A stretch of 23,436 nucleotides of DNA, from positions 1 through 23,436 of the IMG/VR virus record IMGVR_UViG_3300025120_000569, one strand, 5' to 3'. Shown piece by piece: positions 111 through 23,436 of the stretch. Position 1 is the stretch's first letter, and every line of letters starts with the position of its first letter. Source of the stretch: a virus. The notes below the pieces were generated by a model that worked only from the letters and a program-made list of their open reading frames with translations, had not been told where the DNA came from and made no database searches. Position numbers and translations under genes: made by a program.

Positions 111-3100
111 TTAACTCTTAAGAAATAGCACTGCTGGAGTAGTCTGATCTTGTAATGCTATTCCATTACTTGCAGTATTTGTTCCTTGTGCATACATTAC
201 GTTAGCAGTAACTTGGCTAAACCAAACTTCAACGTTTACTGCTGGTGCAGTTGTTAGTGTTACTTCTGTAAATGTTGTATCGGTTCCAGTTATAGTATAA
301 TCTGTTTCTGGTACAAGCACTGTGCCGGCTACTGTAACTGTTATTGATTCGCTCAATTCAGTACTATCTAATCCAGTTGGTACTATGATTGAAGTTGTAA
401 ATCTTGTTGTTGTACCATCACCGTAATTTGTTTTATCTGTTGTTGTTTTCTGTTGATATGTTGCAGGCAACTGCTCTCCTGGGCCTACATCGCTTACACT
501 ATCGCCTTTAGCATGTACATAGACTCCAGTTCCTGCAGTTCCTCTTCGCAGGTCACTTACTGTGTTGTTAGGTACATCTCTAACTCTATATGTAATTCTT
601 TCTGCTCCGACCGTAAGTTGTCCAAAGATATTATTTTCTAAATTTGGTTCACTTAATTTAGAAGCATCTAATACATGTATTTCTACGTCATCAACTGCAA
701 GTTCTTTTGTAAGTTGTGTTGTGTTCTTTGTGTTCAAACGTAGTAATTTCTGATTACCAAGCATATCTTGGAATATCCTAAAATTCAGACTATTAGGCAC
801 AACAGTGTTTGTGAACATAGTTACTACAAGTACGTCTGCGGCATTAATTACATTTCTATCAAGCACTAGAGTAGTTAGGTTACTTGCATTTGTTGTAAGA
901 TCGTACTCGGCAGTACTAATATAAAGACCATTTAGTGTTACTATTAACCTTTCAGGACTTGTAACTAGTCTTCCTAATGCAAAGTTATTGGTATCAATAG
1001 TTGTTCCGATTGTTCTGTCAAAAGCGGCACTATCATATGGCACTTCGTCGTATCCGTCTCCAGTTGTGACTCCAGTTGTAGTTGGACCTACAAAAACTTT
1101 TGTTAGTAGATTTTGCTGAGCAGTATCATTAAATGTGTATACTGCAAACTGAGCGTTAGCGGCTGCACTTACACGCAGGTCAATTTGATCACCAAGTAGT
1201 ATATAGTCTGCTTCGGTTGTTGTAAAAATCTTAATATCGCTATTAGCAGGCGGCATACCGCCGGTTGTAAATTCTATGTACCTATTGCTTGAACCGTCCC
1301 ATGCACTTAAATTATAATCTACTGCAAGAGCTTGTTTAACGTTATCAACATACACTAGCATATCTGCTGGTGATACAAGTGCTTGATTGCTTATACCTGT
1401 GGTACTGATATAGTACGGACCAGCACTTGAACCATCTCCGGTGTATTCGATACCTTCCGGTGGACGTAGTCTTAGTCCTTCGCGTTGTACTATTAGATTG
1501 GCTCCATTAGTGCCACCTAAACTGTTTGTAAGTTGATCTAGTAAACTAGATCCATCATATGTCATATACTGTACTAAAGGTGTACTCCATGAATACTGTG
1601 TCGGTGTCGTTGTACCAAGGACTCCAAAAGTAATCCAGTCACTAGCACCATAACTGCTTGTAAATGTAACATCAGTTTTAAAACCTGTAGTGTCAGCGGC
1701 AAATGCATAATCAGTAATTACTATACCGTTTACAAATATTACCATCTGATTGATCTGTGTGAACACAACTGGAATAGTTGCTACGTTGTCAACAATCTCT
1801 GTTCCTACAATACTTTCTTTGTATATTTGTGATCCACCGCCTAAGCCGTATACCCTAACTCCTATGTTGTCTCCAACACCTGATGGCATACTTGCACCAA
1901 GTGTTACAACTTTTATGACCCAATTTATTGTATAGGCAGTGTTTGCAATACTTTGACCACTTGTAATATCAATTACTTCAATTCCAACTGGATGTAGTAT
2001 TGCACTTGTGAAATCTAGTGTTGTCCCAGCTCCAGCAAATACAACGTTTATTGTTGCTATGCCAAATCCGTGTCCGTCTGCGTTCCAATCGCTTCCTGGA
2101 CGAGTAAAAACTTTTAGATCAAGTGTGTCAAATTCACTTCCAGGAACTAGTTCTTCTGGAGCATGCGAACTGTATGTGTCTATAAATGCACCACCAACTA
2201 TGTTTATATCTGTTGAACGTGTACCCAAGTAAGTGTCAGTAAATGAACTTTCATATATAACATCAAGTATAGCAGGATCATAAGTTGGTAATCCTTCTGG
2301 ACCAAAGTCAATATTATCAAATGGTGTTGTATCAAAGTTTCCAATATCAAAGCCAGTATTCTCATTGAAGTCAGGTGCGTCAACCTGTACTCCAGGATAG
2401 TCTATACCTGTCATTACTTGTGCTAATTCACGTCCTGGCTCATTTGGTTCTGGTGTGTATAAGCCGATAGTTCTATCTGCACCATCGAGTGTTGACTGGT
2501 CGACCTTTGTATAATTCTCAGGATCAAATATAGTACCACTTGTAAAGTTAGTGTTTACAGTGTAAACTTGTGGTAAACTTACATTTACTACACCCAATGT
2601 AGGTACTGGATATCTAATTAATTGTCCAGCAGTATAGACTGTACTTGCAGTCCAATCCTTCACTTGACTGGTGTATGTTATTCTGTCATATTTTACCGTA
2701 GTTGTAAAGTCACGTACCTGTTGAGGTTCTAGAACCACAACTGCCGTTCCACCAGTACCGTTTCCGCCTGATATTGTAAGTGTTGGTGTTGTTGAGTAAC
2801 CGCTTCCAGTTGTTACCACTGTTATACCTGTTAGAACACCAGCAGTGTTTACAGTTGATGTAAATGTTGCTTGTGTGATCGCATCGCCTGTGACAACTAC
2901 TTGCGGCGGTACTGTATAACCAGATCCGCCTTGAAGCACAGTCACGCTTTTGATTGCAAGTTTATAATTATTGTACCATTGGCTCCAAGGAAACGTAGCC
3001 CAAATACTAGAGGTGCTTGGCACTGCACTTAATGATTTTGGAAATTTAGTATCATCAAGTATTGGTGAAACAAATTGATTTAGTTTTGCATCATAGTATG

Positions 3101-6100
3101 CAGGCAGATCAAAGTCTGTTAGACTGCCGTTGTAAGTGTCTTCGCCTTCGTAGCGTAAGTTGAACTCTCTAACTTGTACATGGTACGGCTTTACTTCTTG
3201 TATATACTGGCTAACAAAGTCTTGATTATCTCTTCTAAAAATTGGATACTCAATAAGGTCACGTATTTTATGGTTTACATCAATCAACGATGTTTTAATA
3301 AGCCAGTCTGGAGCTGATTGTTCGCTCATAATAAATTCAAATGTTAATATCAATAGTTCGTTTCTAAAGATTTTTAATTCGTTTGTAAATATTTCTTCGT
3401 TCAATGCTTTTAGTATTTGTCTTGTCTCAACATCAGGAGCCTGTGCAAATCTTTGTGCATCGAATACTTCAACGTCCCAACCAAAGTTACCTACTGTGTA
3501 ATCCCAAATAGTTTCGTCTATTGCGATTGTACCGTCTTCTAAGAAAACTCTTGTCCATTCACCTGTTGTTGTACTATACTGATATACTTCCTTCTTTGCA
3601 AAACTGTTTGCCAAAACCGTTGCCCACTCGCCATCTAATACATTTTCTAAAGCAAGTAAATTACTATAAACAGCCACTTCGTAGGTACTAGCGTTTGCAT
3701 TGCTATAAGTTGACTTATCAGCGTTTATACCATTCCAGTCAACGTAACTCCAATATAGTTTTGTATCGTAGTTTTGTACTCTTGCAAGTTGAAGTTTAGG
3801 ACCAGCAAGGACTGTATAGATTGTCCATAACCCTTCTTGTGTACTATCACTTGCAACCAGATAGTTATAACCGACTGCAACCTGTCTAAGATCTTGGTAG
3901 GTTAATTCAGCATAAGTTAACAGACGTTTGTCCCATAACCCACTAGCACTTGTTGGTTCTGGATCTTCGCTGTTTAGTAATTTAAAAGTTTTATTATCAG
4001 TAATAGGATATAGTTTCATAATCCTATTTGCACGTTTTAAATAATTTTCAAGTGCGAGAAATCTGTTTACAAAGAAACTTTGTCTTGGTCTAAAATAAGG
4101 TCCGTACTTGTCTGCAGGACTTAATGTTGGATCAGGAACGTTGTTACCCAGTGTATCAACTCCACAATAGCTGTCCAGGAACTTTCTGTAAAGTCCTGTT
4201 CCGAGGAAACTATTTGGATCGTTCTGTGTTATTAAGTCATATTCGCTATGGACTGCATCTGTATTTTGTAGTTTATCAAACTCCACATGTAGTATTGTGT
4301 CAGTAGCAACCAACTGAGTACGCACATTATACAGTCCGATTGTACTTTGGCTTAATGCCGCACTATATGACACTCCGCTTGATCTTGGATCTGTGATATA
4401 TTGTGTAATTGCATTTGAACTAAGTGTTTTATTGCCAGGTACAATAGTTAAGCCTTTAACCCAGTAGTAGTAGTTTGTTACGAAAGTTCCTGCACTGTCA
4501 AGCTCACTAGTTACTACATAACTGTCTTCTGTGTAAACTGTGCCTTCGCCTACATATGCACTTGGTGCCACAGTATTCTTAGTCCATTGATATACATCAA
4601 CCGAAGAACCTGGAAACAGTTGTCCCCAACGCCTTGCTTTATATTCTATTGTGTCCTGATGATAATCTATAAACCTTACTGTAGATAAATCCCACCAAAA
4701 CTCACCTAAGTGTTCATCTCTCCATTGCGAACCAAAATTGTTCACTGTTCCTGTGTTATATGCAGCTGGATCAATTCCGCCTTGATAGTTTATGTTTGCA
4801 CTTGCGGCTCCAAGTATTTTACCTTGTAGCGGATCAATAAAATCTAAATATGTGTCAACTTCGTTGTTTACTTTGCTATAAGTGAATACACTATTGAGAA
4901 GCCTACTGTCAACCATTGGTTGTTCGTTATAAACAATCTTCCACGCACTTTCTTTATTCGCATTGACAAGTTGTGTGACTCTTCCGTAGTCTCCCGAACT
5001 GTCATTTAGATCATCGTTTGGAGCTCCTACTAATAGTACTCCATCAAAGAAATCTACTGCACTACCAAACTTATCAAAGCTCACCATGCTAGTATCATAG
5101 ATCTGTTGCCCAAATGCAAACTTTCCTGGATTGGTTGCACTGGCATTTGCACTGCTCAAATAATTATATGTGTAAACAACACCCGACTCATCAAGAGGAT
5201 CAATTAATTGTGTGCTTCTTGAGTCAAAGTAAGTTGTTGGCAATCCTGTTGTTCCGCTATCAAATGTTGTTGGCAAGTTTGCGGTTGCGTCGGGAGCTCC
5301 TACAACCAATGTAGTTGCAGTGCTATCAATTTTTATGGTCTGACCAAAGTGTCCGTATTCTTGAGGTATCGGTGCTATTATTGTCTGTGCAAACACAATA
5401 GGTGCTAGTCCAAGATCTGCAAACGCAGTTCCTAGCCCAGGTGCCACTTGTAGTTTAATAAATGCTTCACCAGCTTGTATATCAACAAGTGTAATTTGTA
5501 ATGCACCACTAACTTCAGTCGCTTTAATGTTTGGTAAGTCAGCAGTGGTAATATCTGTTACTAAACTAGCAACTGTTGTTCCACTAAGTGTTACATAGTA
5601 GTTGTTAATTCTAATGCTATCTGTTGCAGTTAATACAGGATTAGTTACAGTTCCTGTAATAGTACCAAACAGTCTGCTTTGATTAATCCATCTGTCTACA
5701 CTTCCGCCTTCTGGAGATATTGTACTATCGTTTGGTTCAGAAATATAAAGGCTACAATTAGTTGAGCACATGTCTACTGCTTGACCAAACTTATAATTAG
5801 TACCAACTGTTGATGAGTTGATTGTTTGCACTAATCTAAAGTTATTGGTTTCAATTTCTACAATATCGCCAATGTTAAGTGTGTAAGGATTAGTAGCAGT
5901 ACCAATTGTTGTAGTGGTTCCGCTAAAACTAAATTCTGCATTATTATTTTGTGCAGTTGGTATTAGGTACGTTCCGTTTACTGTGACTGCAGGTGTGCCT
6001 TCTGGTGTATCTACAGTGGTAAAATTTTGTGTGGTTGTTGATGCAGTTGTAACTTGGAAACGTTCTACACTTCTATCGTAAATGTATACTTTACCTGCAT

Positions 6101-9100
6101 CAGTTGTAGTAGTTGATCCAACAGTGACCTCGGCTCCAGGAGCTCCAATAATCACATGTCTACCGTCGGTTGTAGTTGAAATACTCTGTCCAGGCAAGTC
6201 ACCAACACTGCCACCTGTTTTAATAGTTTTTACAAAATCCCAATATGTTTTTGCATCGATTAGTAAGTTACCACTGCTAATTGCAACAAGTAACGTTACA
6301 GTATCACCTGTAAATGTATAATCAAATATTGGACGTAGCAACGATCCGTTGTAATATACTGAAAAACTATAGATATCAGTTACTGAATGAACTGTTGCAG
6401 TACTAAAAGCAGTTGTACTTACAGTTGGTAGATATGTTACACCTTGTAATCTTGTAATTCTAATTGTATCGTTTTCGTTAGGTGCAGTTGCAAATCTTAC
6501 TACTTGATTGGTACCAGAAGTTTGTACTGTATAACCACTACCTGCAGTTTGTGAAATATTATTTCTTGTAACTCCGAGTTGTGTCTGTGCAGTTGCATTA
6601 ACTGCACTTACAACAATAGTACCTGTAATAATAAAATCTCTAGTAGTACCGTCACCTGTAAAGTTAAGTGTTTGACTCTGTACACCAACTTGCTGATAGG
6701 CCCATACATAATCACCACTAGTAGTGGCTGTCGGAGCACTTATGTATAACCAACGTTCATCATCACTGACTGCAATATCTCTTCCAAAGTTGTCAACATC
6801 ATTTGTTCCTGTATTAAACAACTGTGTTTGTGTGTATTCTCCATTAGAACTATTTCGTCTAATACCAACTGCATAACCTTTACTGCTATCACTAGCAGGA
6901 GCTCCTGCAACTAAGCGTTCAGTATTACCTACACTTAAACTAGTACCTGTCCCTACAAACCCAGCTGCAGTAGGTGTCATAATTGTATTTTCTTTATATG
7001 TGTTTGTGTCTGACTTGTTGTAACAATATATACCGCCTTTGCCACTAGCATATCCTGGTGCACCGATTGCTAATCCTTGCCCAATTAGGCCTTGTTCTAC
7101 ACTAGTTCCAAATAAATCATTCAGTATAGGTGTATCGGCATCAATTTCTGTTGGGGAACCAAATGGATTTATTTTTTGTAGTACTGCCCACTTGCCATCA
7201 CCATAATCATCTACCCATGCTTGGTTACCAGAGACAATGTTATTTGCAAAACTTAATCCTGCAACATCACTTGCTTGTGCAACGCGGACAGTTTCAAGTA
7301 TAAACACTAACCCTATGCCTGTAACCGAAGTTACTTCTCCTGGTAAACTAAGTGCAATGGTAATGGTCTGTAAACTCGGAACACTTGCAATAGTATAAGC
7401 ACCATCAACACTTGCGTCAAAGTATTTTATTACAATTCTACTGCCTATAAGCAACCCGTGATTAGTATTAAAAGTTAATGTGCTTGTACCGTTTAGGTTA
7501 TCAACAACTGTTGTTATAGTTGCGTTTACTAAGTTGTTTCTGTATATATTCCAGTCATATGGATTTGCTTTTGCTACCCATATGTTGGTTCCAATAGCAA
7601 TCTGATCCAGGTTAGCAACAATATTACTTAGGTCATCAAAGTTAAACACCTTAATGTCTACGTCATCAAAGTTTACATAACCAGCAGTCGGAAGAGCTAT
7701 GTCATCAGGTATTGTGCCAACTGTGGGTAATATATTTTTATTAGTGATCTTATAACTTTGCTTCCATATATTATCAACAAGTATTTGTTGGTTTGCAGTT
7801 GTGATATCGCCCGGATCAACCACTGCAACAGTACTAGGATTTCCAAGAAGTTTACTTTCATCTAATCTTAATTCAAAGTAACTTCGGTTAGCGTTTGCTC
7901 CATAGATACCACGTTGTATTGCCCAGTTTTCTCGTATTTCGTATTCTGCTTCTTCTTTGCCAAGATTAGCACTTTTAAATTGTTCTGCAGCACCAAGTGT
8001 TCCTTTGGTTCCTAAGAACTGACTGTACAATCCTGCTTGTGAGATATCATCTAAGTTTAAGTTTTGCATATACTGTCTTGGACGGAAACCAATAAGTCCT
8101 AGGCCAAGTAGTGTTGCATCACTTTCTAAGTTAGCAGTATGTATATCGTAGTTTTCTCTAAGAGCGTCAGCCTTGGTTGCTAAGTTTGGTAACAGTCCTG
8201 TTTGTATTCTATCGAAGTCACTCTTTATCCAATCCGCAAACACAAATGTTTCGCTTGGTGCGAGTAATCTAGTAGCACTCCAATATGCTTCTTTATAAAG
8301 TACTATTTGCCCTTTGGTGTATGCGACATTTGCTACCCATTCTTCGATATTATTCTGATTTAGAATAAATCCTTGTGCATCAAGTGTACCGTTCCAATCA
8401 AACACAGTATTACCGTTAAGCAATAGTCTGTTTTGTCTTGCCCCAGTAGTTGGGTTGTAAATTAAATCGTTAAAAATACTTGTATTATCAAATACTATTA
8501 TATGTTCGTATGAGGTAAATCTTGCATTAAGGAAACTAAACGTTTGGTTATTAAGTCCTACAAGTTTAAGTTCATTGTCTAATCTTTCAACTGCATAATC
8601 TTTGCCAAACAGTGGCTCAAAGTTTTGATCAAGCATAATATCGTTTATATTTTCGTTCTGCAAACTCTCTACAACTGAAAATGGTCTTTCGATTTTCAGT
8701 ACATCGGCACCTGGATTTAAATTAATTAAACTGCCTACTGTCCAACTTTGTCCTACCCAGTATAAAAACTCTTCTGACATCTGTTTCCAGTTAACTATAG
8801 TATCATTTATTTGACTATTAAACGTAAGTCCTTGCTTATCGAGAAACGCTCCGTAACTGTTAAGAAAGTCAACTACTGCGTTTGAACTCGTAAACACATA
8901 TCCATACGGTACCTGTACTACATTCTGTGTATAGGAATTGTTTATTCTGCTAGTTTGTCCGTTTACGTTAATAGTGGTAAACTTACCAGTAGGTTGACTT
9001 TGCAATATCTCAAAATAAGGTTTTGTGGTTGAGTAACCTGCCACTGCATATCCTGTAGACGTTCTCTGTACTGTTACCGCAGAATAATGTATTTCTGCAA

Positions 9101-12100
9101 AACTAGGATTGCTATATAAAAACAACTGATAACTCTCATCAGGCAATAACAAACTACTGTTTAAACTATTTGGTGAACTCTTTTCAGAAAATATTTTCAA
9201 GTATGACTTATCGCTAAAACATGCCATCCTATAACATAAACGTATGTCTAAGTTGGACAAGCGTTGTTTCACTGCGACTGTACTATCTAAACCTGTAACT
9301 CTGTTGTAATCAACCACATAATTAATGTAACTATTTTTACTTGTGCCGTTGCCGTATATTGTAAGTTGTGCAGGATCAATTCTAAATCTGTCGTTAAACA
9401 AGTATTGATTATAATCCGTATTGTATTTGTAAAGGTCTCTATCAGAAAATAAACTAAAGAACTTTGCTGACTCTGTTAGTGCGAGTAGTCTTTGTATTGC
9501 AAATGGATAGTAACTGCTTCTTCTCCAAGCAGTTTGTGTAGGAGCATAGTCTCCTGCTACCCAACTTCTTACAAAACTGTTTTGATCATAGCTGCCAACA
9601 ATGCTTTGCATAGGTGATACAAGATTTCCTTGCGAATCAGTTGGTAAACAATCAAGTAGCTCTGGGCGTATAAATTCTTTAACTATTACGTTGCCTGTCG
9701 GATATGAAATAATACCTTTTGACAAATCGTCCCACAATACTGTGTTGCCACTTGTATAAGGTGCAGGTCCGTACCTAATAGTCCACCAACTTGGTTCTAT
9801 ACTAAGTCCGACCATTTCCCAAGGACGTGTGTGAGGACTATCAGTGTCATACAAGTCAAAGTATATGCCTCTCCAGAATCCAAGGAGAGGATCACCATCT
9901 AAACGATTCTCACTTGCTGAATAATTCCATGTAAACTGATCATCAGCATCATATGTTTGATCTTTATACGGCACACGGTTTGCACCGACCCATGCAAGAA
10001 AACTTACATTTAATATATCGTTAATCTCAGTCAGTGTATAAGCAGTTGTTCTGAACTGTCCGGGAATCACATCACTTGCTCTCAACGGTGGATCGTATTT
10101 TTCATAGGTATTAATTTTTATATTATTGTATACACGCTTTTCAAATTCAAGTAGTACATCGTTTCTAAAATCGCCTGTTGGAAATGCAACAGTTAAACTA
10201 CCATCATGTCCTTGTATTACAGTAGTAGGAGTTTGGTACGTGTTATCTAAGAAACTATATGGCAAGTATACTGGGTACATTCCCATCATACTAGGAGTTG
10301 CTGGCACATAACTACCATAAGTGAAAGTATATTCTCGTATTGTGATAATATCGTCGTTAGCCAGTGTAACTTTATCGTTGTTAATTGTTATTCTTGGCCC
10401 ATCAGTTGCAACAGTATACTGTTCGCCGTCGCCAACTAAAATAGTTTGTACTCCGGTTGCTTTAGGAGTAAGGTACACTAAAATTCCTTGATAATTAGCA
10501 CTTGTAAAATTATAACTGTATAATGTGTCAAAGACATAAGTTGATATCGGGCTAAAGGTATACGTGGTGGTTTCAAAATCGTTTCCGCTTGGCAATGCAT
10601 CTGTCCAATAAAATGGTGCATCTGCATTTTTACCTGCATTTATAGATAACAGTGTTGTGTCAAGTATAGTCGCAGTGGTCTTTCCTTCCCAATCGTTATT
10701 TGAAACAAAATCTAGTATTTTATTTTTTGTTTTTGAATATTCTTGACTGTTAAATTCTAATGCACGAAAAAATTCAAACTCTCGCCCAGTGATAAAAGGA
10801 GTAACCATTGTAAGAGGAGCACTCTGTTGCAGTATTAGGTTACCAAACGGTATAATGTTACCAAGATCACGTACATTATTTGCTCCGTGTATCTTTCCTG
10901 AGAAGCTTTCTAAGTTTTGACAAATAGTTTCGTAATGTGTACGTACTGTTCCAAGTGTAAAACCATTGCTATTCTTGTTCATAGCGTTTGATTCTAAGTT
11001 ACTAGGAATAGTATAAAATCCTATTGTACTTGCACTTTCGCTTATCACTTGTACTTCAACTACTGCACCGATTGCAGGTTGTGTTGCTGGCTGACCGACT
11101 ATGTTAGTATTAAATGTTACAACTGTGACGTTATCAGCATTTGTAATATAGTTGTATGTCGACGGAAGGACAAATTGTCCTTCTACAAAAACTTTTACTG
11201 GAATTTTACTAGTGTCAGTAATTACTGGTATATCAAGTACCAACGAGCTACCTGCATAATCAAATGTAAAACTCTGGCGTTGTACATTTGTGTCAAAATG
11301 TGTTTGCCAACCAAGCAATTTATCAAACGATGTTATTGTATTATACTGTCTTATTATACCAGTGTCAATATTTTGCGTACTACTGGTTGTTCCGCTTACG
11401 TATGTAAATTTATCAATATATAAGTTGTTGTCAAAAACAATATCACCAACGTTACTGATTGTAAGATACTTCAAGGGCTGGTCAATAACGCTATCAGTCA
11501 CACCAGTTCCGACTGCATAACTGAATAACTTAGTTCCTACAAATGTAGTACTAGGATATACAGTTGTATCGCTTAAACTATAACCGTTAGCATCATATAC
11601 ATCAAACAATGGTGGCTGATTAACGTCTGTTTTTTGTTGCCCAGCTAACCATGTTGTGCCGTTAAACCAATAACTCTTGCCTTGTTCAGTTGTGCCACTA
11701 AGCACAACAACATTTGTATTAACTGGCTCTTCTGGAGAGGTTAAACTTGCAGCCTGTAGATCAATAGTTTTAACACTGCTGTCTTCAAAGTCTACAAAAT
11801 TTACAGTATAAATTTTATTTGCTACTTGAGGATCAAGATCAGCTGCAAATATTATTCTCGAACCTGCTATTAAATTATAGCCGTCAACACTATATCCAAT
11901 GCTTCCGTTAACATTTTGAAATGCATTCTGTTGGCTAAAATCAATTATGTCAATTGGAGCAGTTGCTTGTATACCATAGTTGAATAGTTTTAAACTTTTT
12001 CTGTATTCAAGTATAGGACGCTTTGCTCTTGCACCATTGTCTATAACCAAAGATACGTTATTATAATTAGCAGTTTGAGTCAATACATCTATATGAAACC

Positions 12101-13727
12101 ATCTGTTGCCTCTGGTCCATGCATTAATATCCAGACTTGCTCTGTTTATTGTCATGTAATCTTGTGACGTAGGAGCATTAGCAGTTGCATCAAAGCCGCC
12201 AACGTCAAATGGTATACTATCAAACGGAACACCAGCACTTACAGTATAAGTTTCGGGTGTTACAAAATTAGTCACTGGTAGTAGCTCGATTGCAGTACCT
12301 ACTCCTTCAACATAGTATTGATTGCCTTCGTATGAACTAGGCACAATAGCACCTGTAAATTCAACTTTCAGTCCGTTTGTAAAAACAACACCGTTTGGTG
12401 ATGTAAAATTTTTCTTTCCTACTATATCGGCATCAACATTTAAATCTGAAATATTTTCTTGGTCAACTAAACGTATAATACCAAAATTTAGTGCATCACT
12501 TTGATCCTGATAATAAAGAAGATCTAAGTTTGCAGTAATGAGAGGTTGTCTCTCAAACAAACCATCGGCGTTTTTATAAAAAGTTACACCTGCATAGTCT
12601 GTACCATAGTTAATAAGACTTTTGCTTAAATTAGCAACGTCTTGTACTTTAGTAAGTTCTATAAATGGACGCAGTGGATTTGCATAATTGTAATTAATCC
12701 TCCATTGTACATAACGCTCTGGATCGGTTGCTAACGCTACACTGTTATCAAAGCCGGCATTTGGTATACCTGGGTTGTCTTGGTCAAATAGTGTATCATC
12801 AAAAGGCGTTAATACTTCCCAACCAACATCTGTATCTGTTGTGATTATAAGTGTTCTACCGTCAAGGTCGGTTATTCCATCGATGCCGCCGTTTGCGTCA
12901 TTGAATACATCAACAAACTGTCCGTTAATTTGATTAAACTGTAGTGTGTCTTCTAATAAATCTGTACTTCCGATATCAGCAAGTGTAAAGAAAAAATTCT
13001 GTGCAGTTTTGCTTGGAACTGAAAATGTTATTGTCCCAACATCATCTCCGTTGTTCACAACACCTAGTACATCTCGAGAACTTTGATTAGGTTGTTGTCT
13101 TAATACGCCACTTGTTCCTGGTTGACTCTGTATCCAAAAATTACGTCCTAAATCAGTTACATCAAACTTGTATTCACCTTGCCTTGCTAGTGAAATAGTT
13201 GGTAATGTTCCTTGTAAAGTGCTAAACGTAAATCCAGTGTTCACATACTTCACGTCATATGTTGCACGTATTGGAATTGCATTTGCAAATACACTAACAC
13301 TGTCTGGTCCTGCTGGTACCCAATAGTATTGTCCAAAGTTCACGTATTTGTCAAAATCAACAAACGGATCAAAACTATAGTATTCGCTATCAAATAGTCT
13401 ATCATTACGTGTTGTATTAGCACCTTGAAGATTTAAACTGTCGATAATACCAGGATAGGTTATTGTGTTTACTAGTTCAGAGCTTTTATCTTTTGTTTGC
13501 ACAACTCCAGGCTCTAACTGGTAATCTGTTCTTATCTGTGTGGGCTCTAATACATAACTGTCAGATGCAGTTACACCAGGCCCAATCTTACGTCCAATGT
13601 ATCCTTCAGTTGGTTTTAACTTTGGATTTTGTGTAAGTTGATCAAGTGTACTACGAAGCAACTGCTTATTTGCGGGTGTTTGTAGTATTTCTGGTAAAAA
13701 CTGTTCAGAACGTATGCGGTTAGCCAT
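111..13727 (-). CDS. Giant multidomain baseplate/tail structural protein (4538 aa), in gene 7 position
   Basis: One uninterrupted frame of 4538 residues (about 0.5 MDa), starting three bases after gp6 with GGAG about 11 bases before the ATG. T4 order is 25-6-7, so position suggests a role replacing or extending wedge protein gp7 (1032 aa in T4); homology to gp7 itself is not evident to me. Landmarks by residue: an aromatic motif YYSFDPFVDFDKYVNFGQYY at about 116-135; RPWEM...RYGPAPYTSGN at about 1299-1328; seven FG-GAP repeats at about 2214-2917; WWDLSTVRFI at about 3011; paired GSGY repeats at about 3600-3645; HAPEELVPG at about 3855; LRRGTAGT at about 4392; and a C-terminal beta domain ending in TASNGIALQ...FLKS. 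Around ten degenerate beta-sandwich modules are scattered through it. I recall several of these motifs from large virion structural proteins of marine T4-like phages, but no search was possible. No enzyme motif, signal peptide or transmembrane segment was seen. The virion role is well supported; the exact baseplate position is inferred. Confidence 0.85.
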   Translation of the reverse strand: MANRIRSEQFLPEILQTPANKQLLRSTLDQLTQNPKLKPTEGYIGRKIGPGVTASDSYVLEPTQIRTDYQLEPGVVQTKDKSSELVNTITYPGIIDSLNLQGANTTRNDRLFDSEYYSFDPFVDFDKYVNFGQYYWVPAGPDSVSVFANAIPIRATYDVKYVNTGFTFSTLQGTLPTISLARQGEYKFDVTDLGRNFWIQSQPGTSGVLRQQPNQSSRDVLGVVNNGDDVGTITFSVPSKTAQNFFFTLADIGSTDLLEDTLQFNQINGQFVDVFNDANGGIDGITDLDGRTLIITTDTDVGWEVLTPFDDTLFDQDNPGIPNAGFDNSVALATDPERYVQWRINYNYANPLRPFIELTKVQDVANLSKSLINYGTDYAGVTFYKNADGLFERQPLITANLDLLYYQDQSDALNFGIIRLVDQENISDLNVDADIVGKKNFTSPNGVVFTNGLKVEFTGAIVPSSYEGNQYYVEGVGTAIELLPVTNFVTPETYTVSAGVPFDSIPFDVGGFDATANAPTSQDYMTINRASLDINAWTRGNRWFHIDVLTQTANYNNVSLVIDNGARAKRPILEYRKSLKLFNYGIQATAPIDIIDFSQQNAFQNVNGSIGYSVDGYNLIAGSRIIFAADLDPQVANKIYTVNFVDFEDSSVKTIDLQAASLTSPEEPVNTNVVVLSGTTEQGKSYWFNGTTWLAGQQKTDVNQPPLFDVYDANGYSLSDTTVYPSTTFVGTKLFSYAVGTGVTDSVIDQPLKYLTISNVGDIVFDNNLYIDKFTYVSGTTSSTQNIDTGIIRQYNTITSFDKLLGWQTHFDTNVQRQSFTFDYAGSSLVLDIPVITDTSKIPVKVFVEGQFVLPSTYNYITNADNVTVVTFNTNIVGQPATQPAIGAVVEVQVISESASTIGFYTIPSNLESNAMNKNSNGFTLGTVRTHYETICQNLESFSGKIHGANNVRDLGNIIPFGNLILQQSAPLTMVTPFITGREFEFFRALEFNSQEYSKTKNKILDFVSNNDWEGKTTATILDTTLLSINAGKNADAPFYWTDALPSGNDFETTTYTFSPISTYVFDTLYSYNFTSANYQGILVYLTPKATGVQTILVGDGEQYTVATDGPRITINNDKVTLANDDIITIREYTFTYGSYVPATPSMMGMYPVYLPYSFLDNTYQTPTTVIQGHDGSLTVAFPTGDFRNDVLLEFEKRVYNNIKINTYEKYDPPLRASDVIPGQFRTTAYTLTEINDILNVSFLAWVGANRVPYKDQTYDADDQFTWNYSASENRLDGDPLLGFWRGIYFDLYDTDSPHTRPWEMVGLSIEPSWWTIRYGPAPYTSGNTVLWDDLSKGIISYPTGNVIVKEFIRPELLDCLPTDSQGNLVSPMQSIVGSYDQNSFVRSWVAGDYAPTQTAWRRSSYYPFAIQRLLALTESAKFFSLFSDRDLYKYNTDYNQYLFNDRFRIDPAQLTIYGNGTSKNSYINYVVDYNRVTGLDSTVAVKQRLSNLDIRLCYRMACFSDKSYLKIFSEKSSPNSLNSSLLLPDESYQLFLYSNPSFAEIHYSAVTVQRTSTGYAVAGYSTTKPYFEILQSQPTGKFTTINVNGQTSRINNSYTQNVVQVPYGYVFTSSNAVVDFLNSYGAFLDKQGLTFNSQINDTIVNWKQMSEEFLYWVGQSWTVGSLINLNPGADVLKIERPFSVVESLQNENINDIMLDQNFEPLFGKDYAVERLDNELKLVGLNNQTFSFLNARFTSYEHIIVFDNTSIFNDLIYNPTTGARQNRLLLNGNTVFDWNGTLDAQGFILNQNNIEEWVANVAYTKGQIVLYKEAYWSATRLLAPSETFVFADWIKSDFDRIQTGLLPNLATKADALRENYDIHTANLESDATLLGLGLIGFRPRQYMQNLNLDDISQAGLYSQFLGTKGTLGAAEQFKSANLGKEEAEYEIRENWAIQRGIYGANANRSYFELRLDESKLLGNPSTVAVVDPGDITTANQQILVDNIWKQSYKITNKNILPTVGTIPDDIALPTAGYVNFDDVDIKVFNFDDLSNIVANLDQIAIGTNIWVAKANPYDWNIYRNNLVNATITTVVDNLNGTSTLTFNTNHGLLIGSRIVIKYFDASVDGAYTIASVPSLQTITIALSLPGEVTSVTGIGLVFILETVRVAQASDVAGLSFANNIVSGNQAWVDDYGDGKWAVLQKINPFGSPTEIDADTPILNDLFGTSVEQGLIGQGLAIGAPGYASGKGGIYCYNKSDTNTYKENTIMTPTAAGFVGTGTSLSVGNTERLVAGAPASDSSKGYAVGIRRNSSNGEYTQTQLFNTGTNDVDNFGRDIAVSDDERWLYISAPTATTSGDYVWAYQQVGVQSQTLNFTGDGTTRDFIITGTIVVSAVNATAQTQLGVTRNNISQTAGSGYTVQTSGTNQVVRFATAPNENDTIRITRLQGVTYLPTVSTTAFSTATVHSVTDIYSFSVYYNGSLLRPIFDYTFTGDTVTLLVAISSGNLLIDAKTYWDFVKTIKTGGSVGDLPGQSISTTTDGRHVIIGAPGAEVTVGSTTTTDAGKVYIYDRSVERFQVTTASTTTQNFTTVDTPEGTPAVTVNGTYLIPTAQNNNAEFSFSGTTTTIGTATNPYTLNIGDIVEIETNNFRLVQTINSSTVGTNYKFGQAVDMCSTNCSLYISEPNDSTISPEGGSVDRWINQSRLFGTITGTVTNPVLTATDSIRINNYYVTLSGTTVASLVTDITTADLPNIKATEVSGALQITLVDIQAGEAFIKLQVAPGLGTAFADLGLAPIVFAQTIIAPIPQEYGHFGQTIKIDSTATTLVVGAPDATANLPTTFDSGTTGLPTTYFDSRSTQLIDPLDESGVVYTYNYLSSANASATNPGKFAFGQQIYDTSMVSFDKFGSAVDFFDGVLLVGAPNDDLNDSSGDYGRVTQLVNANKESAWKIVYNEQPMVDSRLLNSVFTYSKVNNEVDTYLDFIDPLQGKILGAASANINYQGGIDPAAYNTGTVNNFGSQWRDEHLGEFWWDLSTVRFIDYHQDTIEYKARRWGQLFPGSSVDVYQWTKNTVAPSAYVGEGTVYTEDSYVVTSELDSAGTFVTNYYYWVKGLTIVPGNKTLSSNAITQYITDPRSSGVSYSAALSQSTIGLYNVRTQLVATDTILHVEFDKLQNTDAVHSEYDLITQNDPNSFLGTGLYRKFLDSYCGVDTLGNNVPDPTLSPADKYGPYFRPRQSFFVNRFLALENYLKRANRIMKLYPITDNKTFKLLNSEDPEPTSASGLWDKRLLTYAELTYQDLRQVAVGYNYLVASDSTQEGLWTIYTVLAGPKLQLARVQNYDTKLYWSYVDWNGINADKSTYSNANASTYEVAVYSNLLALENVLDGEWATVLANSFAKKEVYQYSTTTGEWTRVFLEDGTIAIDETIWDYTVGNFGWDVEVFDAQRFAQAPDVETRQILKALNEEIFTNELKIFRNELLILTFEFIMSEQSAPDWLIKTSLIDVNHKIRDLIEYPIFRRDNQDFVSQYIQEVKPYHVQVREFNLRYEGEDTYNGSLTDFDLPAYYDAKLNQFVSPILDDTKFPKSLSAVPSTSSIWATFPWSQWYNNYKLAIKSVTVLQGGSGYTVPPQVVVTGDAITQATFTSTVNTAGVLTGITVVTTGSGYSTTPTLTISGGNGTGGTAVVVLEPQQVRDFTTTVKYDRITYTSQVKDWTASTVYTAGQLIRYPVPTLGVVNVSLPQVYTVNTNFTSGTIFDPENYTKVDQSTLDGADRTIGLYTPEPNEPGRELAQVMTGIDYPGVQVDAPDFNENTGFDIGNFDTTPFDNIDFGPEGLPTYDPAILDVIYESSFTDTYLGTRSTDINIVGGAFIDTYSSHAPEELVPGSEFDTLDLKVFTRPGSDWNADGHGFGIATINVVFAGAGTTLDFTSAILHPVGIEVIDITSGQSIANTAYTINWVIKVVTLGASMPSGVGDNIGVRVYGLGGGSQIYKESIVGTEIVDNVATIPVVFTQINQMVIFVNGIVITDYAFAADTTGFKTDVTFTSSYGASDWITFGVLGTTTPTQYSWSTPLVQYMTYDGSSLLDQLTNSLGGTNGANLIVQREGLRLRPPEGIEYTGDGSSAGPYYISTTGISNQALVSPADMLVYVDNVKQALAVDYNLSAWDGSSNRYIEFTTGGMPPANSDIKIFTTTEADYILLGDQIDLRVSAAANAQFAVYTFNDTAQQNLLTKVFVGPTTTGVTTGDGYDEVPYDSAAFDRTIGTTIDTNNFALGRLVTSPERLIVTLNGLYISTAEYDLTTNASNLTTLVLDRNVINAADVLVVTMFTNTVVPNSLNFRIFQDMLGNQKLLRLNTKNTTQLTKELAVDDVEIHVLDASKLSEPNLENNIFGQLTVGAERITYRVRDVPNNTVSDLRRGTAGTGVYVHAKGDSVSDVGPGEQLPATYQQKTTTDKTNYGDGTTTRFTTSIIVPTGLDSTELSESITVTVAGTVLVPETDYTITGTDTTFTEVTLTTAPAVNVEVWFSQVTANVMYAQGTNTASNGIALQDQTTPAVLFLKS
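200..1810 (-). repeat. C-terminal array of degenerate beta-sandwich modules in the giant protein
   Basis: Residues about 3975-4510 contain four units sharing the pattern: aliphatic strand, VxVNG or equivalent (VIFVNGIVI, LVYVDNVKQ, VTLNGLYIS, VTVAGTVLV), then a DY(x) turn (DYAF, DYNLS, EYDLT, DYTIT), then a Thr/Val strand and a final hydrophobic strand ending in a VxxFT-like segment. A different conserved unit (VHVLDASKL-like followed by LRRGTAGT and HAKGD) separates the last two at about residues 4330-4420. Such modules are frequent in phage tail-fibre proteins. Boundaries are approximate. Confidence 0.55.
2733..2960 (-). repeat. Glycine-rich GSGY tandem repeat in the giant protein
   Basis: Around residues 3590-3665 two similar units are spaced 41 residues apart: GGSGYTVPPQVVVTGD and TGSGYSTTPTLTISGGNG. 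Each is followed by an alternating Thr/Val/Ala stretch (for example ATFTSTVNTAGVLTGITVV). The pattern is that of a small repeated beta-structure with a glycine turn, common in phage fibre and tail proteins. The two copies have diverged at DNA level, so this is an old duplication. Confidence 0.6.
4970..7095 (-). repeat. Seven FG-GAP repeats (integrin-alpha-type beta-propeller) inside the giant protein
   Basis: Seven copies of a pattern FGx(S/A)(V/I)...(L)xVGAP...GxVYxY occur in order. The GAP (or SAP/SEP) tripeptides start at residues 2222, 2275, 2330, 2528, 2663, 2810 and 2901. Clear examples are FGQTIKIDSTATTLVVGAP (repeat 6) and FGSAVDFFDGVLLVGAP (repeat 7). Repeat 5 has SEP and contains CSTNC. 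FG-GAP repeats form the blades of seven-bladed propellers in integrin alpha chains and bacterial adhesins. The first three are spaced 53-55 residues, one blade each. Later intervals are 198, 135, 147 and 91, so extra domains are inserted between blades. I do not see the classical DxDxDG calcium loops in the blades. Confidence 0.75.
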
Positions 13728-17189: not shown

Positions 17190-17570
17190 CTATACGTCTG
17201 AGAAAGAGGCTCGTTGTTGTTGATTGTCAAAAAACACACGTAAGCTATCTGAGTCTTGTCCTGCGATTGTTTGGACTTCAAGTTCACATAAAAACCCATT
17301 TTCTTGTGCATACACATTTATATCAGATATTTGTATTCTCGGATCTTGTGCCACAACACGTTGTAATTCTGTAATGATTGCTTTAGATGTTTGAGCGTTT
17401 GTAGGTTCAAACATAAGACTCCACATTGACGTTCCTACGTCTGGTCTACCTGCCACTTCTCCTTGCCTAATGTTAAGTGCATTTAGCAAGTCAGCCTTGA
17501 TAAGTTCAAAATCAGTTAGTGTATAATTTTTATATCTACCTACTGAGCTATATCCGATTACTGTTGTCAT
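17190..17570 (-). CDS. 25: Baseplate wedge protein gp25 (126 aa)
   Basis: gp25 is the small wedge protein that helps clamp gp6 and nucleates sheath assembly in T4-type tails; it belongs to the gp25/TssE family once thought to be lysozyme-like. Supporting sequence: DFELIKADLLNALNIRQGEV with GRPDVGTSMWSLMFEP, then TELQRVVAQDPRIQISDINV. These match the usual gp25 layout of a helical start, an R-P-D-G turn, and the EP and DPRI motifs. Its length is normal (T4 gp25 is 132 aa). It starts 7 bases after the gp5-like stop. No convincing ribosome site is visible; the ATG instead abuts a late-promoter-like ATAAATAC. It is followed by gp6 as in T4. Confidence 0.93.
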   Translation of the reverse strand: MTTVIGYSSVGRYKNYTLTDFELIKADLLNALNIRQGEVAGRPDVGTSMWSLMFEPTNAQTSKAIITELQRVVAQDPRIQISDINVYAQENGFLCELEVQTIAGQDSDSLRVFFDNQQQRASFSDV

Positions 17571-17573
17571 ACT

Positions 17574-17581
17574 GTATTTAT
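17574..17581 (-). promoter_or_regulatory. Late-promoter-like motif abutting the gp25 start
   Basis: The minus strand reads ATAAATAC, overlapping the TAA stop of the gp5-like gene and ending three bases before the gp25 ATG (17570). It is the same octamer as the one before gp6. If used as a late promoter, the transcript would begin at or just inside gp25, giving little or no leader. It may instead be a remnant or a translational-coupling junction. Confidence 0.35.
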
Positions 17582-19815
17582 GTTTCTATTCCTGTGACTT
17601 TTTGACTGGCAATTACAGTTTGCACAGCTGTATCAATATCGCTACGTATTACCGTTCCTGTAGTTCCGGTTAGGCCTGTAGTAAATCCTTGTATTTCGCT
17701 GCTAATCTTTTGTGTTGTAAGATTCACTGCATACTGCCCGCCTTTAACCAGTTCATTCATTTGTCCTGCAGTTATGTTTCCGCTTAGAGCTCCGTTAAAA
17801 GTTTGACCTAGTATTGCACTGCCTTGGGTCCATTTTTTTACTGCATCAACTCCAAATTTACTAGCACCACTTACCAGTCCTGCTAAGTCTGCCTCATTTT
17901 CTAAACCAGTCACTATGCCTGCATTTTGTAAACCGTTCAAGCCTTTTGTAAACAAATCTGTTTTAGTTAAGTCTTGTATTGCTTCATTATTTAAAAAGTC
18001 ACTAACGCCGTTTATGCCTTGATTTCCGCTCCACACACTTGAACTGCTTAGTACAGTGTTTAGATCAGAGGTAGCATCTTTAAGGAAGAAATCAGCAGTA
18101 CCCGGCTTTAAGAAACCAGCGTCCTCTAGTTCAGGTGCACTAAATCCAAATTTGCCAACACCAACTGTGTTTGATATTTCATTAAACTTTTGTGGCACAA
18201 GTTTACTTGATTGTGCTAACATACCAGTAACTTTTGTTGGAGCAATCTTGCCAACATTACTTGTTGCTGAGTTTTGTGCTTCGTAGTCACCTTTTTCAAT
18301 TTTTGTAATTTCAGTTGTTGTAGTTTTATCAACTGCTTCTTGTGTTTTTGTATCTAAAGGCACCTCATTTGCACTAGCACTTGATAAGTTAGTAGTTGTG
18401 TTTACTCCTGTGCCACGCTCAGCGTACGGTTCATGTGTTGGAGCTCGAGTAACGATAGTTTCTATTGCAGCCGGCTCTGGTATCCAGCCTTGACTTGCAT
18501 CAAATTTTGTATCTGGTAGTCTACGTTTTGGTATTTCTTGTGCTTTTGGTACATCACCTGCAGCACCGCTATTGAGTTTAATACAACCAGCTTCTAATGT
18601 AAGTCCTGACCCTCCACCCCATGAACCAGTATTACTTTTAAGCATTAATGCACTGTCACTTTTTAAACCAATCATGCTTTTACTATATGCTAGTAAACTA
18701 TTTGTACCTGTCAATGAAAGACTAGCACTTTCTAAACTCATTGCCGTTTTGGCATGCATGTTTATACTACCGTTTTCACTGTTAAAATTTATATTTCTAT
18801 CGGCGTGCATGTTTATTTCGCCAGCACTTCTGATATTTAAACTGTTTGAGGAGTAAACATCAATTGTTCCTTCTTTACCTAGTTCTATCCATGTTTGCCC
18901 ATTTGAATGCATTATATGTATTGTAGGTTCAAGTTCACTATCGTTCATCATTATCTGATGTCCGCCGCTTGTTCTAAACCTAACTAAGTTATCTTCTCCT
19001 TCTTGGTCGCCATCATCCATTACTAAACTGTGTCCACCTCGTCGACCAATTATACTGGCTTGATTTGCTTGTAAACTATTTGCCGCAACTGCAGCCTGAA
19101 ACTGTGCAGAAGTTAAGCCGCCCGAGTATATAGGCCTTCCTGGTGTGCTTATACCAAAACAGGCACTCGGTGACTCTCTTTGACTATTTGAACTGATTGG
19201 GCCGAGAAGAGGATCTGCTATTACTCCTTGCGAAAGCATTTGCCCTGCAAGGACACTATGAACTGGTTTAGGTTGATCAAAAAATCTTGGATTTTCTGCA
19301 ATAGCAGGATTAGCATTATTAATTTCAACTACAGGTAGTTTCTTTTTACCTGCAAATAATGGACTATTACTATCGTCGACATATTCTTCACTCGAACCAA
19401 TAGCAGGTAGCATGTGATTAAGTCCTGGCTGAATAGGCATACCAATATAGTAACCCATACTCGGGTCGCCATCTACAAAGAAACAAATTACTTTTGTTCC
19501 AAGATCCGGAGCACTTCCCCAAAAGCCGTATGATTGATTATTTCCGGTAAAACTTCCTGGACCAGTTGGTTGAGGTGCACTCTGTTGTGTTGTTCCATAA
19601 AATGGAGTTATGTAACTAACAGTACGCCATAAGTCTTTGTTATTTTTATCTGGTCCGGCAATATATTCAATATAAACTTGGACCCTGCCTGACCGTGTTG
19701 GATCAACATTGTTTGTAATTTCTCCAATAAACGGACCGCTTTCTGCCGGCATTCCGCCTTTGTCAGCTTTAAATGCTCTAGGTGTACCTACACTTCTACT
19801 ATAGTTTTCTGCCAT
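17578..19815 (-). CDS. 5: gp5-like central baseplate spike, without lysozyme domain (745 aa)
   Basis: gp5 trimers form the membrane-piercing spike under the tail tube in T4-type phages. Residues about 25-130 fit the gp5 N-terminal OB-fold (FIGEITNNVDPTRSGRVQVY, then GTKVICFFVDGDPSMGYYIG). Residues about 258-418 hold a run of short beta-helix turns like the VgrG/gp5 C-terminal spike (GGHSLVMDDGD, GGHQIMMNDSE, IEINMHADRNINF-type repeats). In T4 a lysozyme domain sits between these two parts; here residues 135-255 show no lysozyme motif. A further 325 residues follow the beta-helix, including TIVTRAPTHEPY (453-464) and FGFSAPELEDAGFLKPGT (556-573). The start is supported by TAAGGAA five bases upstream. 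It follows the hub-like gene by 9 bases and precedes gp25 by 7. Spike identity is strong; the role of the tail extension is unknown. Confidence 0.87.
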   Translation of the reverse strand: MAENYSRSVGTPRAFKADKGGMPAESGPFIGEITNNVDPTRSGRVQVYIEYIAGPDKNNKDLWRTVSYITPFYGTTQQSAPQPTGPGSFTGNNQSYGFWGSAPDLGTKVICFFVDGDPSMGYYIGMPIQPGLNHMLPAIGSSEEYVDDSNSPLFAGKKKLPVVEINNANPAIAENPRFFDQPKPVHSVLAGQMLSQGVIADPLLGPISSNSQRESPSACFGISTPGRPIYSGGLTSAQFQAAVAANSLQANQASIIGRRGGHSLVMDDGDQEGEDNLVRFRTSGGHQIMMNDSELEPTIHIMHSNGQTWIELGKEGTIDVYSSNSLNIRSAGEINMHADRNINFNSENGSINMHAKTAMSLESASLSLTGTNSLLAYSKSMIGLKSDSALMLKSNTGSWGGGSGLTLEAGCIKLNSGAAGDVPKAQEIPKRRLPDTKFDASQGWIPEPAAIETIVTRAPTHEPYAERGTGVNTTTNLSSASANEVPLDTKTQEAVDKTTTTEITKIEKGDYEAQNSATSNVGKIAPTKVTGMLAQSSKLVPQKFNEISNTVGVGKFGFSAPELEDAGFLKPGTADFFLKDATSDLNTVLSSSSVWSGNQGINGVSDFLNNEAIQDLTKTDLFTKGLNGLQNAGIVTGLENEADLAGLVSGASKFGVDAVKKWTQGSAILGQTFNGALSGNITAGQMNELVKGGQYAVNLTTQKISSEIQGFTTGLTGTTGTVIRSDIDTAVQTVIASQKVTGIET

Positions 19816-23002: not shown

Positions 23003-23308
23003 TTAGATTCCTAATACTGTTTTTAATGTCGACTCTTGTGGGAGGTAAATTGTTGTGCCTGTGACAAAATCAAACAAAGGATCTTGTAATTGATTTGGGT
23101 TACGCTGAGCAAACACCCACCAAAGACTTGGATCTCCGTATAGGTCAAACGCTAGTAGATCAGGACGTAGATTGTATGTCGCATTTATAGTCATACTTAA
23201 ATCATCAATTAGTTTTGGTATAGGTCGATCCACCATTACTCCAAGATACTGATTTTCTATAACAGGCGTATCAAAGTACATACTGTTTGATCCATAAGAT
23301 ACTGCCAT
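23003..23308 (-). CDS. 53: Baseplate wedge protein gp53-like, LysM-type (101 aa)
   Basis: gp53 is a wedge component that helps join wedges around the hub in T4 tails; marine relatives are short and LysM-like. Visible here: DLSMTINATYNLRPDLLAFD, then LYGDPSLWWVFAQRNPNQLQ and FDFVTGTTIYLPQ, the usual series of an LRPDLLA.DLYGDP..WW core followed by a hydrophobic GTTIYLP strand. The protein is shorter than T4 gp53 (196 aa) but of the usual length for this branch. I chose the ATG at 23308 over the GTG at 23314. The upstream stop overlaps it (TAATG), and AAGGGAA sits 7 bases before it but would be too close to the GTG. One base separates its stop from the next gene. Confidence 0.88.
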   Translation of the reverse strand: MAVSYGSNSMYFDTPVIENQYLGVMVDRPIPKLIDDLSMTINATYNLRPDLLAFDLYGDPSLWWVFAQRNPNQLQDPLFDFVTGTTIYLPQESTLKTVLGI

Positions 23309-23436
23309 TACCACATTCCCTTCTTAATTAGATTGCCATTTGCATATTCTTTCAGACTAAACTGTTGACTTGCCATCTTCCTGCTTACTATTGGTAATAA
23401 GTTGATTGTCATTGACATCTTAGTTGGTACATAAGT
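23308..23436 (-). CDS. C-terminal end of a probable tail-tube cap/baseplate protein (gp48-like?)
   Basis: The last 42 codons of a gene entering from the high-coordinate edge, ending in TAA at 23310-23308. The visible end includes VPTKMSMTINLLPIVSRKMA and then FSLKEYANGNLIKKGMW. From memory, a VPTKM strand followed by NLLP, R-S and an ANGxLxKKG tail is found at the C-terminus of gp48-type tube caps of marine T4-like phages, which lie before gp53. Only the end is seen, so the name is tentative. The stop and the gp53 start share one base, suggesting translational coupling. Confidence 0.5.
   Translation of the reverse strand, partial: TYVPTKMSMTINLLPIVSRKMASQQFSLKEYANGNLIKKGMW
23316..23322 (-). 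promoter_or_regulatory. Shine-Dalgarno site of the gp53-like gene
   Basis: The minus strand reads AAGGGAA, lying in the last codons of the upstream gene. Seven bases lie between it and the ATG at 23308, and only one base before the alternative GTG at 23314. It therefore decides the start in favour of the ATG. Confidence 0.65.

Follow-up and report, generated by a model that had tools for sequence, protein, structure and literature searches.

Among the closest described counterparts of the element analyzed here, a seven-bladed FG-GAP propeller within a giant structural protein of an uncultured virus, is the N-terminal propeller of integrin alpha chains, which it resembles in its seven FG-GAP blades and in a superposition covering the whole propeller. 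The virus is represented by a 23,436-base contig (IMG/VR record IMGVR_UViG_3300025120_000569; this whole stretch is the window, and all coordinates are contig positions). Its propeller differs from that of integrins in lacking the calcium-binding A-B loops, in being part of a structural protein and in having additional domains inserted into the C-D loops of blades 3-5. Bacterial proteins of the Pfam family FG-GAP_2 belong to the same repeat family, which the phage protein matches above the gathering score, but the phage has one set of seven repeats placed in a baseplate-cluster scaffold, and most of these diverge too far to pass singly.

Propellers are already known in phage tails. The related jumbo phage AP-J-162 encodes a stand-alone integrin-like propeller, gp213, beside its tail genes (PMC11242549). 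This protein and the Atu_ph07 'hemagglutinin' are propellers of about 375-409 amino acids (aa) encoded by separate genes, unlike the insertion in our contig; Atu_ph07 has its separate propeller gene while its giant protein holds a different insert at the propeller site. The C-terminal seven-bladed propeller of phiKZ gp131 (4GBF) lies at the periphery of a jumbo-phage baseplate, its function being unproven, and the head of the phi11 receptor-binding protein (RBP) is a five-bladed propeller (PMC4901313). The phiKZ domain is a terminal part of another protein and was not among the top 50 VIA-align matches of our model. In the nozzle of SU10, a seven-bladed propeller with a domain inserted between blades and with a fibre dock loop docks the short tail fibres (PMC9509320). 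The SU10 and T7 nozzles are alike our case in having a seven-bladed propeller in a tail protein, but they line the podovirus tail channel. To our knowledge, they have no relation to FG-GAP repeats. Finally, the phrog_10938 giant proteins of RaK2, PBECO4, CBB and GAP32 share the scaffold and the gene order of our contig, but are about 3,300 aa long and have no propeller.

In the open-access literature, we found no report pairing FG-GAP repeats with a phage baseplate and none of a propeller within a gp6-adjacent giant protein. The seven blades, their fold, the exact insertion point and the conservation across an uncultured lineage were established computationally. As to function, we favour by analogy, with about even confidence, that the propeller serves as a docking platform for other virion proteins on the giant baseplate-cluster protein.

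Repeats and fold of the propeller

The initial annotation had described seven ordered GAP/SAP/SEP repeats at 4970-7095. The seven tripeptides stand exactly where it had put them (residues 2222, 2275, 2330, 2528, 2663, 2810 and 2901), and hidden Markov models (HMMs) assign each to one FG-GAP blade; the extent was borne out but slightly narrow, the true span being aa 2186-2934 (4926-7172). The propeller is organized as follows.

4926..7172, minus strand: seven-bladed FG-GAP propeller, aa 2186-2934, with three inserted domains (AlphaFold2, Foldseek/VIA, Pfam PF14312, junction alignment)
6978..7118, minus strand: blade 1, aa 2204-2250, GAP 2222 (HMM, secondary structure)
6816..6962, minus strand: blade 2, aa 2256-2304, GAP 2275 (HMM, secondary structure)
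6687..6803, minus strand: blade 3 strands A-C, aa 2309-2347, SAP 2330 (HMM, secondary structure)
6246..6686, minus strand: inserted beta domains in the blade 3 C-D loop, aa 2348-2494 (secondary structure)
6219..6245, minus strand: blade 3 strand D, aa 2495-2503 (secondary structure)
6066..6191, minus strand: blade 4 strands A-C, aa 2513-2554, GAP 2528 (HMM, secondary structure)
5865..6053, minus strand: inserted beta domain in the blade 4 C-D loop, aa 2559-2621 (secondary structure)
5817..5864, minus strand: blade 4 strand D, aa 2622-2637 (secondary structure)
5682..5798, minus strand: blade 5 strands A-C, aa 2644-2682, SEP 2663 (HMM, secondary structure)
5400..5681, minus strand: inserted alpha/beta domain in the blade 5 C-D loop, aa 2683-2776 (secondary structure)
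5379..5399, minus strand: blade 5 strand D, aa 2777-2783 (secondary structure)
5100..5363, minus strand: blade 6, aa 2789-2876, GAP 2810, with a long B-C loop (HMM, secondary structure)
4926..5081, minus strand: blade 7, aa 2883-2934, GAP 2901 (HMM, secondary structure; the Pfam-detected stretch)

By itself the tripeptide is weak evidence, whereas its repeat context is strong. The pattern [GS][AE]P occurs 10 times in the giant protein against 3.0 +/- 1.7 in shuffled sequences, and seven of these ten lie within a 680-residue stretch. We then ran over the whole 4538 aa, for each blade in turn, an HMM built from the other six blades of an 87-sequence alignment. The held-out blade was recovered in 7/7 cases, each time above every non-blade place in the protein (independent E-value 5e-7 to 0.05), and the full blade HMM returned the seven blades plus one chance-level match. 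These leave-one-blade-out models and the AlphaFold2 model led us to reject chance as the source of the seven motifs.

The profile search and the structure prediction suggested by the initial annotation both agreed with its proposal. Pfam PF14312 (FG-GAP_2) gave 25.1 bits for the whole protein and 38.1 bits for the segment, both above its gathering cut-off of 23, and reached 50-75 bits in relatives; one repeat passes singly in the contig's protein and one to four do so in relatives. Based on an alignment of 73 related segments (39-87% identity to that of the contig), AlphaFold2 predicted for the propeller segment an integrin-alpha-like seven-bladed propeller with a mean predicted local distance difference test (pLDDT) of 88.7 and a predicted template modelling score (pTM) of 0.85, its secondary structure amounting to 7 x 4 strands (28).

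Foldseek matched the model to integrin alpha heads at probability 1.00, and the best VIA-align match was integrin alphaM (Z 25.7, 358 residues, root-mean-square deviation 2.7 Å, 20% identity). This alignment pairs model residues 125-870 with integrin residues 1-741, a similarity that spans the whole of the predicted ring. Seven-bladed WD40 propellers reached a similar Z, but over fewer residues (285-289) and at 12-13% identity. Because integrin alphaM aligns longer and at higher identity than WD40, the predicted fold is a seven-bladed propeller of the integrin type. The propeller profile gave only a chance match against PDB sequences, and the relation to integrins emerges from the fold and not from sequence comparison.

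These matches bear on whether the propeller could be a sugar-degrading or similar catalytic domain, a role that has been considered for the phiKZ gp131 propeller (PMC4901313). Since the top matches are integrin heads and WD40 proteins rather than propeller hydrolases, and no enzyme family scored above cut-off in Pfam or NCBIfam, we regard catalysis as very improbable.

The calcium-binding loops of integrin alpha, located in the A-B hairpins of blades 4-7, were considered and rejected: the A-B hairpins measure 2-5 residues throughout, and DxDxDGxxD motifs were found neither in the contig's propeller nor in the insert regions of 130 proteins that have at least five blades. The position of an integrin calcium loop in the blade 5 A-B hairpin is taken by a CxxxC pair (2654/2658; 5754-5768), conserved in 73/73 aligned sequences. 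We infer that the three insert domains would hang from the same face of the modelled propeller, because all of them lie between strands C and D of blades 3-5 in the usual propeller topology. In relatives, the blade 3 insert shows a weak, sub-cut-off Pfam resemblance to DUF2460 and to the T7 tail fibre N-terminal domain. The B-C and D-A loops, which in integrins make up the ligand face, are for the most part short in our propeller, and in some relatives they take up as many as about 100 inserted residues.

Insertion point, distribution and descent

The propeller interrupts a scaffold that is otherwise shared with cultured phages.

7542..13727, minus strand: N-terminal scaffold, aa 1-2062, common to jumbo phages without propeller
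7173..7226, minus strand: hairpin of the scaffold preceding the propeller, aa 2168-2185, QAWVDDYGDGKWAVLQK (junctions aligned to PA5oct, RaK2, CBB and Vibrio 2.275.O)
2628..4925, minus strand: C-terminal scaffold, aa 2935-3700, common to jumbo phages without propeller (AlphaFold2 model of low confidence)

On either side of the propeller, the scaffold is about 25-30% identical to giant structural proteins of cultured jumbo phages, and its N- and C-terminal pieces match phrog_10938 separately, flanking the insertion. Aligning the flanks to cultured phages after removal of the propeller placed the insertion at a hairpin tip, with W(V/I)D...W.V.. before it and W.....(V/I)D after it. At this point PA5oct has a short loop of about 15 residues, while RaK2, CBB and Vibrio 2.275.O have none, the hairpin closing without a propeller. 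Atu_ph07 and Phosso have the same hairpin with a different, longer insert containing GxGY repeats; in their giant proteins (L010, L011), long GxGY-repeat arrays extend around the propeller site, at about aa 1640-3210.

Two scans were made for relatives. The first, run against IMG/VR with the scaffold just after the propeller, returned at least 585 related stretches, and we read the 80 best. The second, seeded with PA5oct, added 57 more distant loci. Seven blades were found in 72/80 of the former, eight in 6/80 and fewer in 2/80 (one of them a shortened frame, L089); FG-GAP repeats stood at the same site in all 57 of the latter, exactly seven in 30, many without the extra domains, the counts other than seven (2-6 or 8) being HMM detections, with blades missed by the HMM visible by eye in L158 and L116. 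All uncultured relatives examined thus carry FG-GAP repeats at this point. Their contigs reach 332 kb; on five, 262-332 kb long, the FG-GAP_2 matches fall in frames of 4,491-4,953 residues, which have the size of the giant protein, rather than in small genes of their own. The propeller itself measures 749 residues in our contig and about 464 in compact relatives.

In cultured phages, a tblastn search with the propeller region found no match, and the propeller of a compact relative had as its sole, weak match an FG-GAP-rich protein of Phosso; no relative was found among species-representative bacterial and archaeal genomes. Sinorhizobium phage Phosso (L189, PV764938.1 48338-68978, minus strand) encodes two adjacent giant hypothetical proteins of about 3,160 and 3,690 aa, which carry most of its 55 FG-GAP_2 matches. 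It also has two FG-GAP proteins of ~390 aa at 92124-94532, beside a MazG gene.

In a scaffold tree made by a quick method, with long branches and a midpoint root only, all propeller-bearing rows fall on one side of a branch (support 99) and all eight propeller-less rows on the other. The tree fits one state change, and a single gain of the propeller would be its simplest reading. We tentatively suggest, with less than even confidence, that an uncultured jumbo lineage acquired an integrin-type propeller at a single exchange site, where it may have become the standard host-binding or fibre-docking baseplate head, absent from the cultured relatives examined. The states of this site would be nothing, a short loop, a GxGY-repeat array or an FG-GAP propeller.

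The presence of other inserts, or of none, at the same site in cultured jumbo phages would also suit a purely architectural role, with the propeller filling space and stiffening the enlarged jumbo baseplate through wedge-wedge contacts, and with no specific partner outside the wedge. The many other variable beta domains of the scaffold and the slow evolution described below point in the same direction. Against this, divergent lineages retain exactly seven blades despite differing inserts, which suggests a kept surface rather than mere bulk, and we consider such a role rather improbable.

Gene neighbourhood of the giant protein

The giant gene follows a series of baseplate genes on the minus strand.

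111..13727, minus strand: giant structural protein of the virion, 4538 aa, immediately following the gp6-like wedge gene (phrog_10938, E 3e-289; jumbo-phage homologues)
13731..17138, minus strand: gp6-like baseplate wedge protein (phrog_10646, E 3e-275; phrog_219, E 1e-25)
17190..17570, minus strand: gp25-like wedge protein (Pfam PF04965)
17578..19815, minus strand: gp5-like hub protein (phrog_13211, E 2e-27)
23003..23314, minus strand: gp53-like wedge protein (Pfam PF11246, phrog_7145)

The genes run in the order gp53-like, an unnamed virion protein, gp5-like, gp25-like, gp6-like and the 4538-aa giant gene, and the succession of gp6 and a giant gene recurs in PA5oct, Atu_ph07, Phosso, RaK2 and CBB. 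The PA5oct homologue is annotated as seen by electrospray tandem mass spectrometry (ESI-MS/MS), which supports virion membership of the scaffold. The initial annotation had assigned the protein to the gene 7 position of a T4-like phage. Its order after gp53-, gp5-, gp25- and gp6-like genes agrees with that position; the protein has no PDB sequence match to T4 gp7, and a poor AlphaFold2 model of aa 2936-3700 (pTM 0.45) gave no significant fold match, T4 gp7 included. The putative equivalence to T4 gp7 rests on gene order. The T4-like label gives way to another one since, by sequence, the lineage is that of jumbo phages related to PA5oct, RaK2, Atu_ph07 and SCTP-2.

Two side observations concern the rest of the giant protein and its surroundings. 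Residues 1796-1817 (8277-8342) weakly match, below cut-off, the carbohydrate-binding module CBM_5_12, and a related record is annotated as 'chitin-binding type-3 domain-containing protein'. In relatives (L003:17181-19218, plus strand), the giant gene is directly followed by a phrog_11259 protein of unknown function and then by a 450-aa fibre-like protein, whose gene is two genes downstream of the giant one.

Selection and possible roles

Between close relatives, the propeller has a ratio of nonsynonymous to synonymous substitution rates (dN/dS) of 0.07-0.13, about equal to that of the rest of the giant protein, although these figures are rough, since the pairs compared have dS values close to saturation. 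The most variable parts of the protein, aa 2063-2186 and the C-terminus, lie outside the propeller, whose surface shows no hypervariability among relatives of 77-87% identity. Tips that determine host range as a rule diversify quickly. The slow evolution of the propeller favours a conserved partner, either a second protein of the virion or a surface molecule that does not vary; such strong purifying selection weighs against a fast-adapting head for host range and makes docking of other virion proteins slightly the likelier.

This result also qualifies the 'adhesin-like head' of the initial annotation, which retains its integrin-like fold but evolves as slowly as the scaffold. As a host-binding adhesin, the propeller would be a receptor-binding head of the baseplate touching a glycan or protein of the cell surface. 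Integrin alpha heads of the same fold bind ligands, phiKZ gp131C and the phi11 RBP head have been proposed or shown to belong to receptor-binding devices (PMC4901313), and the large B-C and D-A insertions of some relatives would suit such a role. Since purifying selection is as strong as in the scaffold, no hypervariable surface appears among the 77-87% relatives and the A-B calcium loops are absent, we hold host binding, by analogy, to be possible but unlikely.

In the docking model that we favour, the propeller would sit as a rigid knob on the periphery of the wedge and work as a protein-docking platform. Together with the three C-D loop domains of blades 3-5, it may anchor fibres or further virion proteins of the periphery, in the manner of the SU10 nozzle, and its contact with the host would be indirect. 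We count in support of this model the low dN/dS, the C-D inserts on adjacent blades, the nearby fibre-like gene and the fibre dock loop of SU10. Several points weigh against it. A low dN/dS is equally expected of a head binding an invariant surface sugar, and dS approaches saturation in the compared pairs; the upper-face B-C and D-A insertions (to about 100 residues in some relatives) could reflect receptor tuning. Moreover, the docking partner is only putative, and baseplate membership is deduced from the order of the genes and the annotation of homologues rather than from a match to T4 gp7.

Altogether, an integrin-shaped head can be assigned to one precisely defined point of the scaffold that the baseplate cluster of a widespread, uncultured jumbo lineage encodes, a site that carries nothing or something else in related phages. 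It constitutes a defined domain (749 residues, or about 464 in its compact form) open to expression and partner tests. Likewise, the related phages with and without it offer a natural plus/minus comparison of how giant baseplates attach fibres or hosts.

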